From an uncultured Ruminococcus sp. (GTDB taxonomy: Bacteria; Bacillota_A; Clostridia; Oscillospirales; Ruminococcaceae): DNA of 7,135 nucleotides. Each line of letters starts with the position of its first letter. Position 1 is the stretch's first letter. The stretch is taken from positions 1 to 7,135 of the forward strand of contig CALFMA010000395.1 of assembly GCA_937880065.1 (NCBI GenBank), in the 5' to 3' direction. This document shows, piece by piece, positions 2,163 through 7,135 of the stretch. The position numbers were made by a program, and so were the translations under genes. The notes beneath the pieces are model-generated. The model saw nothing but the letters and a program-made list of their open reading frames with translations. It had not been told where the DNA came from and made no database searches.

Positions 2163-2176
2163 GAATAGCAAAATTT

Positions 2177-2210
2177 AGGGACGTTCCGATTTCGGAGCGT
2201 CCCTGTTTTT
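2177..2210 (+). terminator. intrinsic terminator after the scaffoldin gene
   Basis: A 12-bp stem pairs 2177-2188 with 2193-2204 (AGGGACGTTCCG / CGGAGCGTCCCT, one G-T wobble at 2184/2197) around an ATTT loop, followed by G and five T. It begins 14 nt after the scaffoldin stop. In the opposite direction the stem has one A-C mismatch and is followed by AAATTTTG, so it may also weakly terminate the convergent kinase/regulator operon, whose last stop codon is at 2222. Confidence 0.92.
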
Positions 2211-2221
2211 GTGCCGTAAAT

Positions 2222-2845
2222 CTATACGAGATTATTTTTTATTGCATATACCGCAAGCTGTGTGCGGTCTTTAAGTTTTAGCTTTTCCAAAAGCCTTGAT
2301 ATGCTGTTGCGGACAGTTCCCTCTGCAAGAAAAAGTTCTGCGGCAATTTCTTTATTGTCGTATCCCTCGCATATCAGACGGAGAAATTCCACTTCACGTT
2401 CAGTTAAATCAAGATTTTTCGGAGCTTGCTTCACAGGCTCTTTTTTTATTGCCTGAAAAACATTGTCGCAGAATACATTAATTCCCCCTGCCACAGCTTT
2501 GATTGAATTTATAACCTGTGCACTGTCCATTTCTTTGAGAATATAGCCGTCTGCACCGCTTGCCATAGCCTTTTCAACTGTTTCCTTATCGTCAAATGTG
2601 GTGAGAACAAGCACCTTTATGCCTTTCAGCTTGTCCTTAATCTGACGTGTACCGTAGCCTCCGTCAAAATCGGGCATACGCATATCCATAAGCACCACAT
2701 CGGGTTCAAGCCGCAATGCAAGTTCATATGCCTCCTTGCCGTTGCCAGCCTCCCCCACTACCGTAATATCGGGTTCGCCTGCAAGCACAGCCTTTAAGCC
2801 CATACGCAAAACTGCCACATCATCTGCAATAAGCACCTTAATCAT
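2222..2845 (-). CDS. NarL/LuxR-family two-component response regulator
   Basis: This 207-residue DNA-binding regulator should be phosphorylated by the kinase encoded just upstream. Residues 1-118 are the receiver: acidic pair Asp8/Asp9, phospho-acceptor Asp54 in LMDMRMP, Thr82 in LTTFDD and Lys104 in YILKE, all of the conserved switch residues. A short linker (about 130-145) leads to a LuxR/GerE helix-turn-helix at 146-205, with LTEREVEFLRLICEGYDNKE and the recognition-helix region EGTVRNSISRLLEKL. Domain order and length match the LiaR/VraR/DesR group of Firmicutes regulators. The start ATG lies 4 bp after the kinase stop and its ribosome binding site is inside the kinase gene, implying coupled translation. 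The repeats at 6996-7030 are the best candidate target site, which would make the operon autoregulated; that link is inference. It ends 12 nt from the scaffoldin terminator, in convergent orientation. Confidence 0.93.
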   Translation of the reverse strand: MIKVLIADDVAVLRMGLKAVLAGEPDITVVGEAGNGKEAYELALRLEPDVVLMDMRMPDFDGGYGTRQIKDKLKGIKVLVLTTFDDKETVEKAMASGADGYILKEMDSAQVINSIKAVAGGINVFCDNVFQAIKKEPVKQAPKNLDLTEREVEFLRLICEGYDNKEIAAELFLAEGTVRNSISRLLEKLKLKDRTQLAVYAIKNNLV

Positions 2846-2849
2846 ATTA

Positions 2850-4445
2850 TCATCCTTTCTCTACGGGAATTTTCATCATTGTAGTAAATCCCTCGCCCTC
2901 TACAGAGGAGAATTTCACCGTTCCGCCTAAATCCTCTATGCGGCGGCGAATACCGCTTAATCCGTTGTTTTCCTTAATTTTACCGCAGCCCTTGCCGTTG
3001 TCAAAAATGTAAAGTTCCAGTCTGTCGCCAAGAAATTTTATAATTATATCAATTCTCTCCGCCGATGAATAACGCATTGTATTTGTAACGGTTTCCTTGA
3101 CGGAATCATAAATCTGTCGAATACAGAAAGCATATCGGCTGTCCTCCGTACCCTGCACGCACACGTCAATATCAACAGTCCGCACCGCATCTGTTACGGT
3201 TTTAACTGCCCTTGTTACAGAGGTCATAAATTCATCATCACGGAGATTATTTATAGAGCATCGAAGCTGTGTAATTCCGCTTCGGGATAAGCCGTCAATT
3301 TCCGCTATATATTGCGGAATTTCCGTAAGTTTTCCGCTTTTCAGTTCCGTCTGCGTAATCTTCGCAAGGGAACTTATCATTGTAAATGTGTGACCTGCGG
3401 AGTCGTGAATTTCCTGTGCAATTCTGTTTCGCTCATGCTCAATTGACAGCTTTTTCTCTGTCTGTGCCAGTTCAAAATATTCGGTTATGTTGCTTATAAG
3501 AACAATTTCTGCAATTTCAGTTCCCAATTCATTTAAAATCAGACTTTTTTTCACGCTGTATCGCTCATTTTCCACAGAAAATTCCGCTGAATTTCCCGTA
3601 AAATCAATGACCTCGCCCGAAAGTTCCGACAAAGCCGAACACAGTTCCGAAATATGGCTGTATTCCGCAGAAACAAGAGTTTTCATTGCCTTATTTCTAT
3701 ATGTCACATTTCCCTCAGTATCGAATACTGCCGCCGCCGTTTCAATATTGTCAAAGGTGTCCTGAATGGCTATCTGATTAATGTCAAGAAGTCCGTAACG
3801 CCTTATCGCCACAAGCACCATTATAACAGAAAAGGCAAAAAACAGCGGTGTAAGCTCGATTTCAGATTTAATTACACCGCAGAGAGTCAGCATATTTATC
3901 ATAAGCGGAACAAGTGCCGCCAATGCTAAAAACATTGACTGGGCGGAAATTACTTTTCCCTTTGAATGGCGGATAAACATAAGGGAAATTCCCCATATAA
4001 TGAATATGTAAAATAAAAGCTGAAAAACGTAAAATAACATTCCATAGCTTATGCCGTTTATGCCGAATTCCCTGTAATACAGCCTATGAAGCGGATTTGT
4101 GACAATTGCGGCATACATTACAACGGACAAAATCGGAAGAAAAGCTGCCATTTTTCTGAATTTCGCCGATGTTTCCGAATATTCCGCTGAAAACATAAGC
4201 CAGAATGACGGGAAACAGCATATTCCCACATAACCTATAAGATAGCTGATTTTAAGCTGCATATCATTGACGGAAAATAAAATAAGAAGCTGGGACACAA
4301 GCCACATCACAATTGACATCTGACAGACAATGAAAAGCCGTGTCATTTTATTTTTATTTCCTCTGGACAAAATCCAGCCTACCGTCCCCAGCATACCTGT
4401 AAGACCTATAATAAGCAGGGCTGTCGCCAATATTTTTACCGCCAT
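2850..4445 (-). CDS. 7TM sensor histidine kinase (HisKA_7TM-PAS-HisKA_3-HATPase)
   Basis: This 531-residue membrane kinase is the presumed partner of the downstream response regulator. Seven hydrophobic segments (about 5-27, 36-58, 67-87, 99-116, 132-156, 169-190, 197-215) fit the 7TM N-terminal sensor region found in many Gram-positive kinases. A PAS-like domain follows at about 225-322 (TAAAVFDTEGNVTYRNKAM), then a short helical linker. The HisKA_3 motif ERNRIAQEIHDSAGH places the phospho-acceptor at His347. The ATP-binding domain (about 445-528) shows the N-box ETVTNTMRYS (Glu451, Asn455), the G1 box DNGKGCG (482-488) and the G2 region GLSGIRRRIEDLGG (495-508), so it should be catalytically competent. 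AAAGGA lies 8 nt upstream of the start. The signal is unknown; a ligand or membrane state sensed in the bilayer is plausible. By eye, codons such as ACG, GCG and TCG look more common here than in the neighbouring genes. Confidence 0.93.
   Translation of the reverse strand: MAVKILATALLIIGLTGMLGTVGWILSRGNKNKMTRLFIVCQMSIVMWLVSQLLILFSVNDMQLKISYLIGYVGICCFPSFWLMFSAEYSETSAKFRKMAAFLPILSVVMYAAIVTNPLHRLYYREFGINGISYGMLFYVFQLLFYIFIIWGISLMFIRHSKGKVISAQSMFLALAALVPLMINMLTLCGVIKSEIELTPLFFAFSVIMVLVAIRRYGLLDINQIAIQDTFDNIETAAAVFDTEGNVTYRNKAMKTLVSAEYSHISELCSALSELSGEVIDFTGNSAEFSVENERYSVKKSLILNELGTEIAEIVLISNITEYFELAQTEKKLSIEHERNRIAQEIHDSAGHTFTMISSLAKITQTELKSGKLTEIPQYIAEIDGLSRSGITQLRCSINNLRDDEFMTSVTRAVKTVTDAVRTVDIDVCVQGTEDSRYAFCIRQIYDSVKETVTNTMRYSSAERIDIIIKFLGDRLELYIFDNGKGCGKIKENNGLSGIRRRIEDLGGTVKFSSVEGEGFTTMMKIPVEKG
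2854..2860 (-). promoter_or_regulatory. ribosome binding site of the response regulator inside the kinase gene
   Basis: On the minus strand AGAAAGG lies within the last codons of the kinase gene (GAG AAA GGA TGA), 8 nt before the regulator ATG. Ribosomes finishing the kinase would expose or reload at this site, which supports translational coupling and a roughly fixed kinase-to-regulator ratio. Confidence 0.7.
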
Positions 4446-4463
4446 ATTTTCATTCCTTTCAAT

Positions 4464-4497
4464 GGCAATGCCGCACGTATAGAACGTGCGGTATGCC
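4464..4497 (-). other. long intercistronic hairpin in the kinase leader
   Basis: CCGCACGT (4471-4478) and ACGTGCGG (4484-4491) pair perfectly around the loop ATAGA. The stem extends outward through G4470-T4492 and T4469-A4493, and, past a single bulged A4468, through GGCA/TGCC (4464-4467 with 4494-4497). That gives about 14 pairs. No T-run follows on either strand, so it is not a standard terminator. It sits only 4 nt upstream of the kinase AAAGGA in the 101-nt gap after the large membrane-protein gene. It could set the expression ratio of the membrane protein to the kinase by RNA processing, stability or access to the ribosome binding site. Confidence 0.7.
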
Positions 4498-4527
4498 CTG
4501 ATATTTAGGGAACCTCTTTAATTTTTA

Positions 4528-4542
4528 CCCCGATTCCCCGAT
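4528..4542 (-). repeat. short tandem CCCCGAT repeat after the membrane-protein stop
   Basis: CCCCGAT occurs twice with one intervening T (4528-4534 and 4536-4542) and is flanked on both sides by TTTTTACC (4522-4529 and 4544-4551). On the minus strand this lies just after the TAA stop of the large membrane-protein gene. No stem with a T-tract is formed, so no terminator is claimed; it may be simple slippage. Confidence 0.45.
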
Positions 4543-4546
4543 GTTT

Positions 4547-6904
4547 TTACCATGTCCAGTCTGAAAATGTCTTTGAAACTGTCGCCTTGATTGATTCGCC
4601 CTTTTTGCGTGATGCCTCGTTAACAGCGGCAATTGCGATGAAGATAACGCCTACTGCAAGGAGATATACCCACCAGCCTGCTGATGTGAAATACTTAGCT
4701 GTGAGGAGAATTGTGAGAATTAAAAGGGCGATTGAAGATACGCTGAACCATGTCTTGCTCTTTGCGTAGAATGAGAAGATGAGAACCGCTGCTGTTACTG
4801 CAAGTACGAAAATTCTGTTGAACATATTGTCGTGGCCGATTCCGTCAACTATAAGTCCTGCAAATGCAAGGATAAACATTATTGTTGAGATAATTCTTGA
4901 AGCGTCCTTGTGATTTCTCCAGATAAATCTGTATACCACACCAAGGAGAAGAATAATTCCGAGATTGATTTTGCTTGAAACGAGAGATGAGTCAAATACA
5001 AAGAACTGTCTTGTGATAAATGCAAAGGCTACAAAAAATGCTGATACTGAAAGAATAACTGCCGCTGCATTTTTATTTGTGTTTTTCTTGATGAATGCTG
5101 CTACAAATACAGCAATTGCAATGTAAATGAGGAAGCTTGTTACGTTGTCAATTCCTGAGATGCCGAATAAAGCGATTACTGATACAGGAAGAAGTACGTC
5201 AATGTTAATTCTGTCATTCTTTTTGCAGATTAAAGATTCGGGGAATATAACTCTTGATGCAATTACAAGAACTGCAAATAATCCGAACATAAGGTAATCT
5301 GAAATTCTGTCGCTTACGATATTTTCATCGATAATTTCTTTTAATGTAACTACCAATGCAATAACTGAACCTGCTGCTGTGATGTTGCATTTCATTAAAC
5401 AGGAAATGATGAAATGTAATACGATAACTGAAAGTGAAATAAAGCAGAATTCTGTATATCCCGTGATTGCAAAAAGTGCAATTACTGCGGCTGTCATAAG
5501 GCTGTATGATGCTGTGTGTGCCTTTACAGGGTGGTTTGCATGGAAACCGAATGATATTTTAGGAAGAAACAGGAAGAATGATGCCATAACCACATACAGC
5601 AATGCGAGAATACCATATACTGCAACATAAAGCTTATCTGTTGTTTCATTGTATACGTATAAATTGGCATATATATTATATGCCATACAAATTGGCATTA
5701 TCGGAAGTGCGATTCCTGCAACAAACTGAATATCCTTTGAGTTGTGGAGGCAATATCCCATTATAAATACTGTGAGGATAAATGGGAAAAGAAGATTTAA
5801 TCCGTATACTGCGTCAAAGTTTGCATTAAGGGCAACAATTGAACCGATGATAAATCCGATGAATGAAACAACCTTTGATGCTGTGAGATTTTCGGGAATT
5901 AAGCAATTGATAAGGTAAATCACAAATGTGATTGCTCCGAAAAGAAGCATTGCCCAAGGCTCACCGATTTCGCCCTCAAATCCGCCTGTTACTATGAGAG
6001 CTGTGTAAAAACCGATAATATCTGCAAAAATGAACATCCACTTCTGATTTTTAAGAAAACCGTAGCCGAAAAGCTGAACGAGAAGTATGCCAAGAACTGC
6101 AAATGTATACCATGTAGCGTCAATTGTTGTTGCAACTACATAAGCCATAGCAATAATCTGATAGAGTACAGCTGAGATGTCGCTGATGATTTCAGCAGGA
6201 TTTTCAAACGCTGTACCCTTATGAGGCTTGAAGATGAGAATAACTGCTGTAATGACAAGCTGTGCAAATCCGATAAGAACTGCATACTGATCAAAATTGT
6301 CTGAAAACTGCATACAAAGGAAGATGATTGCAATTGAAATAAATGAAAATCCTGTGTAGTAGAATGAGGGATGCTTGTAGAAGTTCTGACCTGCAAAAGC
6401 AGATACAGCTGCAAGTGATGCCATAACTGCAAGGAACATTCCGCAGCCAAGTCCGTCAAAGCTGAACCATTCGCCGAAAAGGTTGTAATAGCCTGCTGTG
6501 CCGAATGCAACGATTGCAATAAGCGTACCAATCATATAAAATGCTGATGAAGTCTGTACAAGCTCTGAAGCCGCTTTCATAACTCCGCAGATTGCAAATG
6601 CGATAACCGCCGCACCTGCAAGGGCGAATACTCTTGTTACAGGCTCCATATTAAGCCAGTTTGCAGCCACAAATGTGATTGAGGACAGCATAATGAAGAT
6701 TGTACCTATTATAAGCATAACGGAAGATGCGGACATCTTCTTTTTAGGCGGCTTAGGGGCTCTGTAAACAGGTCCGTAAACCATTGATTTTTGCTGAGAT
6801 TTCTTTTTTTCATATTTTACAAGTGCCATAATTGCCAGAACAATACCAACGGGAACACCAATGAAAAGAATTATCAGCAATGCTAAAAGTAATGTAATTG
6901 TCAT
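4547..6904 (-). CDS. large polytopic membrane protein of unknown function (about 27 hydrophobic segments)
   Basis: I do not firmly recognise this protein. With the start at 6904 it has 785 residues. The first membrane segment (about 2-29) is followed by a basic, proline-rich cytoplasmic stretch at 30-56 (KYEKKKSQQK, then RAPKPPKKK). From residue 62 to about 765 there are some 26 further hydrophobic segments joined by very short loops, and a soluble tail that ends in SDWTW. The segment around 62-91 (LIIGTIFIMLSSITFVAANW) recalls DUF2157-like and other uncharacterised clostridial membrane proteins, but this is only resemblance. No enzyme motif, transporter signature or soluble domain is visible. 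It is the first gene of an operon with a sensor kinase and a response regulator, under a promoter with a two-box operator, which suggests a role in envelope function or signal input. The longer start at 6922 is rejected because the ribosome binding site would lie inside the coding region. Confidence 0.85.
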   Translation of the reverse strand: MTITLLLALLIILFIGVPVGIVLAIMALVKYEKKKSQQKSMVYGPVYRAPKPPKKKMSASSVMLIIGTIFIMLSSITFVAANWLNMEPVTRVFALAGAAVIAFAICGVMKAASELVQTSSAFYMIGTLIAIVAFGTAGYYNLFGEWFSFDGLGCGMFLAVMASLAAVSAFAGQNFYKHPSFYYTGFSFISIAIIFLCMQFSDNFDQYAVLIGFAQLVITAVILIFKPHKGTAFENPAEIISDISAVLYQIIAMAYVVATTIDATWYTFAVLGILLVQLFGYGFLKNQKWMFIFADIIGFYTALIVTGGFEGEIGEPWAMLLFGAITFVIYLINCLIPENLTASKVVSFIGFIIGSIVALNANFDAVYGLNLLFPFILTVFIMGYCLHNSKDIQFVAGIALPIMPICMAYNIYANLYVYNETTDKLYVAVYGILALLYVVMASFFLFLPKISFGFHANHPVKAHTASYSLMTAAVIALFAITGYTEFCFISLSVIVLHFIISCLMKCNITAAGSVIALVVTLKEIIDENIVSDRISDYLMFGLFAVLVIASRVIFPESLICKKNDRINIDVLLPVSVIALFGISGIDNVTSFLIYIAIAVFVAAFIKKNTNKNAAAVILSVSAFFVAFAFITRQFFVFDSSLVSSKINLGIILLLGVVYRFIWRNHKDASRIISTIMFILAFAGLIVDGIGHDNMFNRIFVLAVTAAVLIFSFYAKSKTWFSVSSIALLILTILLTAKYFTSAGWWVYLLAVGVIFIAIAAVNEASRKKGESIKATVSKTFSDWTW

Positions 6905-6912
6905 ATGAAACG

Positions 6913-6918
6913 CTCCTT
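6913..6918 (-). promoter_or_regulatory. ribosome binding site that fixes the membrane-protein start
   Basis: AAGGAG on the minus strand lies 8 nt upstream of the ATG at 6904. An in-frame ATG at 6922 is upstream of this site and has only A-rich sequence and CCTCTC before it, so translation most likely begins at 6904 with MTITLLL. That start places the hydrophobic segment directly at the N-terminus. Confidence 0.9.
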
Positions 6919-6924
6919 TCATTT

Positions 6925-6950
6925 TTGAGAGGTTTTCTTGAGAGGTTTTC
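6925..6950. repeat. 13-bp perfect tandem duplication in the operon leader
   Basis: TTGAGAGGTTTTC occurs twice in a row (6925-6937 and 6938-6950) with no mismatch. On the minus strand this gives two copies of GAAAACCTCTCAA in the 5' untranslated leader of the membrane-protein gene. Each copy supplies a CCTCTC that can pair with the single GAGAGG at 6950-6955. Confidence 0.9.
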
Positions 6951-6955
6951 CTCTC
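6940..6955 (-). other. leader hairpin GAGAGG-AAAA-CCTCTC
   Basis: On the minus strand GAGAGG (6955-6950), an AAAA loop and CCTCTC (6945-6940) form a perfect 6-bp stem near the predicted 5' end of the operon transcript. The second CCTCTC (6932-6927) is an alternative partner. No T-run follows, so it is not a terminator; a 5' stabilising or switching structure is possible. Confidence 0.6.
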
Positions 6956-6966
6956 CCTGTGACTAT

Positions 6967-6995
6967 ATTATACCATATCTGTACAATTTTGTAAG
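6967..6995 (-). promoter_or_regulatory. promoter of the membrane-protein/kinase/regulator operon
   Basis: On the minus strand there is a consensus -10, TATAAT (6972-6967), preceded by TGG, which gives an extended -10. A weak -35, CTTACA (6995-6990, 4 of 6 matches), lies 17 bp upstream. Transcription should start near 6960, leaving a leader of about 55 nt. The poor -35 directly next to a repeated operator suggests activation by a bound regulator. Confidence 0.8.
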
Positions 6996-7030
6996 ATGTC
7001 ATTCGTCACTTTATGAATGACATTTGTCAC
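6996..7030. promoter_or_regulatory. putative two-box operator for a response regulator
   Basis: ATGTCATTCGTCAC (6996-7009) and ATGACATTTGTCAC (7017-7030) match at 12 of 14 positions and are spaced 21 bp apart, two helical turns. The second box contains a perfect dyad, TGACA-TT-TGTCA. Independently, ATGTCATTC (6996-7004) and GAATGACAT (7015-7023) form a perfect 9-bp inverted repeat with a 10-bp spacer. The block touches the operon's -35 and its right box covers the -35 of the opposite promoter. The NarL-type regulator encoded in this operon is the obvious candidate to bind it, but that is inferred from context. Confidence 0.7.
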
Positions 7031-7053
7031 ATTGTTATACCAATCCCTAAAAT
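7024..7053 (+). promoter_or_regulatory. predicted promoter of the RNase P RNA gene
   Basis: TTGTCA (7024-7029, 5 of 6 to the -35 consensus) and TAAAAT (7048-7053, 5 of 6 to the -10 consensus) are separated by 18 bp. The predicted start near 7060 is about 66 nt before the conserved GAGGAAGTCC, close to the roughly 62 nt seen in E. coli RNase P RNA. The -35 lies inside the right-hand operator box. Confidence 0.6.
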
Positions 7054-7059
7054 GTTAGT

Positions 7060-7135
7060 AGACAAAGATGATGAGCATAGATGATGTATGTCAAGGCGGA
7101 CGACGAAAGCATACTGTCGTATGGTGAGGAAGTCC
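7060..7135 (+). ncRNA. rnpB: 5' end of bacterial RNase P RNA (partial, cut by window end)
   Basis: This is the catalytic RNA of RNase P, which removes 5' leaders from tRNA precursors. The window ends in GAGGAAGTCC (7126-7135), which resembles the conserved region I signature GAGGAAAGTCC with one A fewer. Directly before it, CATAC-TGTC-GTATG (7110-7123) forms a hairpin in the position expected for helix P3. The distance from the predicted transcription start fits the family. The pairing partners of the 5' stem and the rest of the core lie outside the window, so class A or B cannot be decided and the exact 5' end is approximate. Confidence 0.65.

Follow-up and report, generated by a model that had tools for sequence, protein, structure and literature searches.

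Results

The three-gene unit and its operator

The stretch of DNA analysed here (the window) comprises 7,135 nucleotides of contig CALFMA010000395.1, from an uncultured Ruminococcus sp. On its minus strand lie the gene of a 785-residue polytopic membrane protein (4547..6904), a sensor kinase gene (2850..4445) and a gene for a NarL/FixJ-type response regulator (2222..2845), in that order and all behind one promoter and a tandem operator. The reading frame of the membrane protein is open from 6922, and the start at 6904, which is backed by a Shine-Dalgarno sequence (AAAGGAG, 6913..6919, minus strand), gives the 785 amino acids (aa). The promoter (6967..6995, minus strand) reads CTTACA-17 nt-TATAAT with the TG of an extended -10; its -35 is weak and adjoins the operator, lying partly inside it. 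The operator spans 6993-7030 on the minus strand and consists of dyad 1 (GTGACAAATGTCAT, 7017..7030), which departs from the perfect GTGACANNTGTCAC at its last base, and dyad 2 (GTGACGAATGACAT, 6996..7009), 21 bp from dyad 1 and followed by CTT (6993-6995). In the window the dyad is therefore GTGACA-N2-TGTCAT with a second dyad at 21 bp, whereas relatives mostly have GTGACA-N2-TGTCAC. The three genes, the promoter and the repeated operator were all found where the initial annotation of this DNA had placed them.

A scan of 4430-4570, covering the gap between the membrane gene and the kinase gene of the window, gave no promoter- or terminator-like sites; the strong separate promoter in 4446-4546 that the initial annotation had named as evidence against its proposal was thus not seen there. 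Since no such site separates the two genes, the window probably yields one transcript for membrane gene, kinase and regulator, and the regulator probably controls its own operon there. The gap contains a hairpin (4468..4494, minus strand) without a terminator score, and similar hairpins are present in four relatives (L001, L002, L003 and L005). A further hairpin 3' of the regulator gene (2176..2205, strand unassigned) has a terminator score for the convergent plus-strand gene and is possibly shared. By eye, an open reading frame (ORF) of 98-99 aa, probably a membrane protein, sits between the membrane gene and the kinase in L001, L003 and L005; positions 4517-4539 of the window, and the same place in L002, appear to hold the last bases of that ORF, probably as a 3' remnant.

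Conservation of the unit among relatives

A scan of one genome per species yielded 28 loci (L numbers) encoding relatives, in 27 genomes (G numbers), nearly all labelled Ruminococcus; since L006 and L007 are almost identical contigs from a single genome, the number of independent loci is one lower. Membrane gene, kinase and regulator follow one another on the same strand in 23 of the 28 loci, and in L011 the contig ends after the kinase. The three-gene unit that had been proposed is therefore conserved. In the remaining four (L021, L022, L024 and L028) the kinase/regulator pair is not nearby; it is intact elsewhere in these genomes, around 20 kb away on the same contig in G021 and on other contigs in G020, G023 and G027. 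The kinase is present in all 27 of these genomes, the G010 copy being split over two contigs. On one contig labelled Alistipes (L013) the unit is typical of Ruminococcus and has the same genes around it; this is probably a mislabelled metagenome-assembled genome.

In a wider draw of 197 genomes from the family, a relative of the membrane protein (expectation value E up to 0.001) was found in 24 genomes, the kinase (E up to 1e-40) in 6 and both in 5. The two genes are adjacent in G001, G123 and G145 and apart in G020 and G062; G207 has the kinase without the membrane protein. The 19 of 24 genomes with a membrane-protein relative, mostly distant and longer, and no kinase match show that pairing with the kinase marks a subfamily rather than all of DUF2157, the family to which the membrane protein is related (see below). 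The neighbourhood check suggested by the initial annotation thus gave a divided answer: close homologues adjoin the kinase in 24 of 28 loci, but most relatives across the family have no kinase match.

The operator in relatives

The pattern RTGACAWWTGTCAY-N7-RTNAC, with its 21-bp step, precedes the membrane gene at every one of the 26 loci that could be assessed, in each case as GTGACAWWTGTCAC or a near copy, seven bases, a second dyad starting RTGAC and a tail near CAYCTT. Outside the 26 are L024, which is cut off, and the distant L028, which has a perfect dyad and a 22-bp spacing. The 21-bp step was first read by eye in relatives, and later searches fix it by construction. In the 27 genomes the perfect dyad has 30 sites and its reversed control 5; the dyad is present in 22 of the genomes, as a single copy in 17 of them. 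With up to 3 mismatches the composite pattern gave 68 rows in 26 of the 27 genomes, compared to 8 for the reversed control; these rows include palindromic mirror rows, which were not counted as sites, and three unread rows at 3 mismatches (G015:C193, G016:C30 and G026:C43) that are probably chance. It is clear that the operator occurs above chance. Among 43 distinct operators gathered with a relaxed expression, a TATAAT-like hexamer matching in at least 5 of 6 positions lies at offset 59 from the operator start in 29 and at offset 58 in 11; it is also found at offset 64 in 14, an overlapping register of TATAATATAAT. The best hexamer falls at offset 58-63 with at least 4 of 6 matches in 35 of the 43. 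In G001, the nearest relative, the dyad at the membrane gene ends in T as it does in the window.

Across the 197 family genomes, sites with up to 2 mismatches are present in four of the six that have the kinase (G001, G020, G062 and G145) versus one of the 191 that lack it (G116). Two of the four, G062 and G145, were not used in deriving the pattern. In G145 the site lies ahead of the membrane gene. In G062 it lies elsewhere, has 2 mismatches and is accompanied by a -10-like hexamer; a small hydrophobic ORF follows it, and a further ORF there resembles the 110-aa family described below, by eye. The G116 site is a long intergenic palindrome that looks terminator-like by eye. Beside this palindrome is a 229-aa membrane ORF (L135, G116:C191, 1426-2115, minus strand) that resembles the membrane part of LiaI/LiaF by eye.

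Other candidate targets of the operator

Across the 27 genomes there are 40 sites with at most 1 mismatch, of which 25 belong to the membrane gene. The other 15 precede 13 genes for small membrane proteins (35-179 aa), each with 1-4 membrane segments predicted by simple hydropathy, and 2 for PlsC-type acyltransferases. By size the small proteins are of 35-37 aa (G007, G008 and G009), 110-114 aa (G007, G008, G010 and G025), 103-125 aa (G007, G025 and G010, where the contig ends), 179 aa (G002 and G022) and 80 aa (G027). The three that were scanned (L053, L054 and L098) match no Pfam family over its cut-off. The acyltransferase genes, in G006 (where the assignment is from Pfam) and G026, are followed by a gene for an AMP-binding enzyme. 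Two kinds of site are not among the 15: L055 (G018), a perfect dyad with no clear in-register second dyad, flanked by a small membrane ORF and a phosphopantetheinyl transferase, and L057 and L058 (G027), which have a 22-bp spacing. L052 runs off its contig.

Sites with 2-3 mismatches precede more small membrane proteins in G006 (twice), G011, G025 and G026. One, at 3 mismatches in G021, precedes a short-chain dehydrogenase/reductase (SDR) gene, which we take to be FabG, the gene behind it presumably being FabF. Another row, G001:C90, precedes a 292-aa lipoprotein-like ORF and not a small membrane protein. Conserved proteins of 34-42 aa with one hydrophobic segment (MKxIKxFxIET...) stand behind the operator in six genomes (L097, L103, L104, L106, L109 and L112), three of these sites having 2-3 mismatches.

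The membrane protein

The initial annotation had left the membrane protein as one of unnamed kind; it is instead DUF2157-like. DUF2157 (PF09925) matches the window protein with 31.7 bits (E 1.5e-7), just below the Pfam gathering cut-off of 32.4 bits, and all 21 aligned homologues at E up to 0.01; it is also in the precomputed annotation of 37 of 43 homologues, among them one with 98% identity. As in the membrane proteins named DUF2157 and SCO7613_CTERM, DUF2157 occupies the N-terminal part, and there is a weak C-terminal similarity to SCO7613_CTERM (NF047321; residues 654-783 of a 791-aa reading, 23.9 bits, E 2.7e-5), which, unlike in those proteins, falls well below the NCBIfam cut-off of 45 bits. 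To our knowledge these membrane proteins have no known function.

In an AlphaFold2 model of moderate confidence (mean predicted local distance difference test, pLDDT, 72.5) the protein has 26 helices of at least 16 residues. The predicted polytopic character therefore stands, but the 27 membrane segments counted previously become 26 helices. Among solved structures there was no match to the protein by sequence and none convincing by fold. A search of the 21 homologues with Pfam at E up to 0.01 returned DUF2157 alone, and the C-terminal domain of LiaF (DUF2154/Toastrack) was not found in any of them; membership of a LiaF-like family was set aside for that reason. Two ORFs at L002:3810-5701, upstream of the membrane gene, resemble bPH2-domain proteins by eye, and presumably are YdbS/YdbT-like.

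The kinase and the regulator

The kinase has a HisKA_7TM domain (PF16927; 105.6 bits, E 4.5e-30), a HisKA_3 domain (45.4 bits, E 1.2e-11) and an HATPase_c domain (30.2 bits, E 6.5e-7), all over their cut-offs, and H347 in its HDSAGHT box is invariant. Of the 7TM-PAS-HisKA_3 architecture that had been read from the DNA, the seven-transmembrane (7TM) and HisKA_3 parts hold, but the PAS domain is marginal (PAS_8, E 0.056, 13.8 bits against a cut-off of 21.8). The solved kinase closest in sequence is DesK (28.4 bits).

The regulator is complete and of NarL type, as had been claimed: its receiver (Response_reg, 87 bits) and GerE (65 bits) domains are over cut-off and the phospho-acceptor aspartate is kept, D8, D9, D54, T82 and K104 being invariant in 20 sequences. 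Its recognition helix contains EGTVRNxIS.

Linkage of the pair to the membrane gene

Promoters were sought in the membrane gene/kinase gap of the window and of five relatives chosen by eye. In these five (L014, L015, L016, L018 and L019) a promoter-like site with 11-12 of 12 matches is present, where chance would give 0.6-0.9 sites of at least 9 matches in each of the five stretches. Terminator-like hairpins are scored in the gaps of L014 and L016 and seen by eye only in L015, L018 and L019. Furthermore, no operator was found in the 7.9-10.4 kb read around each of the four unlinked pairs (G020, G021, G023 and G027), and the operator of the membrane gene is retained both in the five loci with promoter-like sites and in L021 and L022 (G020 and G021), two of the unlinked cases. 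It is therefore the operator ahead of the membrane gene that is conserved, and not a shared transcript of this gene and the pair. Control of its own operon by the regulator, as initially proposed, is thus probable in the window but not general.

The initial annotation had allowed the membrane protein to be a sensor, a modulator or an output. Of these the output is favoured: the operator type and gene order are those of des-desK-desR, the membrane-fluidity system of B. subtilis, and the membrane protein is therefore probably an induced output in the place of the desaturase, rather than a LiaF-like accessory.

Neighbouring sequences in the window

The end of a short dispersed repeat resembling a miniature inverted-repeat transposable element occupies 7037-7135 and stops six bases from the operator. 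Complete copies are around 160 bp long with terminal inverted repeats ATACCAATCCCT...AGGGATTGGTAT; matches number 26 in G001, 25 in G002, 26 in G003, 6 in G004, 1 in G005 and 14 in G022, and L001, which is 98% identical, lacks the repeat at this position. An RNase P RNA, suspected by eye at this end of the window, was rejected, as Rfam gave no match at E up to 1 and the stretch is the dispersed repeat. No Rfam family was found over the whole window, and a near-mode search of a plasmid collection gave no match to it.

On the other side of the unit, 813-2162 encodes a type I dockerin protein (E 7.4e-6), possibly a component of the cellulosome type, in which a signal peptide and a region like a cohesin were made out by eye, and 96-773 encodes a methylthioadenosine/S-adenosylhomocysteine (MTA/SAH) nucleosidase with an NCBIfam score over cut-off. 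Both genes are also kept downstream of the unit in relatives, the dockerin protein in 10 of 28 loci and the nucleosidase in 7, several loci being short.

Discussion

Taken together, the whole unit is on balance likely to be a DesKR-like membrane-homeostasis system. In such a system the 7TM kinase would sense the state of the membrane and, judging from its intact catalytic residues, would phosphorylate the regulator. The regulator would then bind the two adjacent dyads 21 bp apart, the second beside the weak -35, and activate transcription, as the position and conservation of the operator suggest. Its main conserved target would be the giant DUF2157-like protein in place of the desaturase Des, with small membrane proteins as further targets in several relatives and a PlsC-type acyltransferase in two; the giant protein may act in the membrane, restoring the state that is sensed. 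A more tentative proposal is that this is a membrane-homeostasis regulon of Ruminococcus whose principal effector is not a lipid enzyme but a giant DUF2157-family protein with some 26 helices, which dedicated small membrane proteins of down to 34 residues would support in some species, with one 7TM kinase setting them all; the regulatory context would then point to the role of the giant protein.

Several observations weigh against this reading. The assignment of the operator to this regulator is drawn from co-occurrence. Because the pattern was derived from the membrane-gene loci, finding it again at those loci, or in G001 and G020, is to some extent circular; in the family draw, hits at 3 mismatches are mostly chance (31 rows in 23 genomes, control 13), the kinase-bearing G123 and G207 have no site under 3 mismatches, and the only perfect dyad in G001 precedes the lipoprotein-like ORF and not the membrane gene. 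Lipid genes are few among the targets (PlsC in 2 genomes and the SDR reductase in one, at 3 mismatches), and no desaturase is among the operator targets read. Over its whole length the regulator matches VraR (152.8 bits) better than DesR (112.3 bits) among solved structures. Over the 32 residues of the helix stretch DesR comes fifth (23.9 bits), with GerE higher (26.7 bits); since GerE outscores DesR and also has the TVRNxIS motif (as TVRNHIS), the helix does not single out DesR. The best NCBIfam kinase is UhpB and the second LiaS, both far under cut-off, and DesK has five helices, whereas the kinase here has the 7TM domain and a marginal PAS domain. Lastly, the membrane gene and kinase overlap or nearly touch in L009, L011, L012, L017 and L026 (with starts taken mechanically), which is the best argument for a closer partnership of the two proteins.

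Such a partnership would be expected if the giant protein were a LiaF/VraT-like accessory that restrains the kinase and senses the signal in a LiaFSR-like envelope-stress system, the short or overlapping gaps then serving balanced synthesis. The order membrane protein-kinase-regulator is consistent with this, as are VraR being the closest solved regulator over the whole length and LiaS the second-best kinase, under cut-off though it is. LiaF has been described with DUF2157 in its membrane part, formed by the N-terminal helices (PMC11237479), which keeps an accessory role alive. However, the Toastrack domain is missing from the homologues searched, in which DUF2157 stands alone; the operator is of the DesR type; a promoter-like site lies ahead of the kinase in five relatives and the pair is unlinked in four genomes; and the regulator is better conserved than the membrane protein (mean column identity 85% over 20 sequences versus 63% over 21, although the sequence sets differ). 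An accessory role therefore seems rather unlikely.

Alternatively, the giant protein could serve as a transporter or lipid flippase that is switched on by a toxic compound, making the unit a detoxification switch like the pneumococcal two-component system TCS11. A polytopic protein of about 26 helices would suit this, and the DesR-type regulator RR11 was found to control only its own operon, with two ABC transporters (PMC11034029). Against it, solved structures offer neither a sequence match nor a convincing fold match, the genes of the window include no ATPase partner, and most further targets are small membrane proteins, the three scanned being without a Pfam family over cut-off; this possibility is likewise doubtful. 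It is very improbable that chance brought the genes together and that a different regulator uses the operator. The 19 of 24 family genomes without a kinase match at E 1e-40 would fit chance, as would the retention of unrelated downstream genes (dockerin protein in 10/28 loci, MTA nucleosidase in 7/28), but the kinase accompanies the membrane gene in 27 of 27 genomes, the two are adjacent also in G123 and G145 with distant relatives, and the operator is found in 4 of 6 kinase genomes versus 1 of 191 others, the sole exception, G116, being terminator-like by eye.

A full-text literature search for DUF2157 returned one paper, which names it for the membrane part of LiaF; DUF2157 is otherwise nearly absent from that literature. 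No description of the present unit was found in literature searches whose coverage excluded most subscription journals. The role of such a protein becomes testable, since it comes with a conserved kinase dedicated to it, an operator that can be read and a few small membrane proteins that are candidates for co-regulation. If the DesKR-like reading is true, a giant membrane protein of gut bacteria would join lipid enzymes and ABC transporters under DesR-type control.

In B. subtilis the desKR genes directly follow des; DesK carries five transmembrane domains, and DesR, once phosphorylated, binds as a tetramer (PMC11237406). The unit described here shares with des-desK-desR the order target-kinase-regulator, a HisKA_3-type kinase that is a polytopic sensor, a DesR-type dyad and a membrane protein gene as main target, and with DesR (4ldz) the GTVRNxIS of the recognition helix. 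It differs in that the upstream gene encodes a giant DUF2157-like protein and not a desaturase, in the operator also standing before small membrane proteins in several relatives, in the dyad (GTGACA/TGTCAC here, ATGACA/TGTCAT there; the DesR motif is given as ATGACA-N2-TGTCAT in PMC11034029) and in a regulator closer to VraR over its whole length. DesKR homologues have been reported, the regulator of one of which acts on the des promoter (PMC7726353), and operator type alone therefore does not name the regulator. Pneumococcal TCS11, which is DesKR-like, has a similar dyad with nearly the same step in the published candidate motif of RR11 (ATGACATTTGTCAT-N7-AGTGACA); it differs in that no specific target was found beyond its own operon, which includes two ABC transporters (both from PMC11034029). 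LiaFSR and VraTSR, the analogy first drawn for this DNA, likewise combine a membrane protein, a HisKA_3 kinase and a NarL-type regulator, here closest to VraR among solved structures, but the LiaF_C/Toastrack domain is not found here, the kinase here has a 7TM domain, and VraR has the recognition helix KTVKTHVS and another published motif (PMC11034029). That analogy is therefore weaker than the one with DesKR in operator type and gene order, and the unit, while no strict member, appears to be organised like DesKR with another effector and another sensor.

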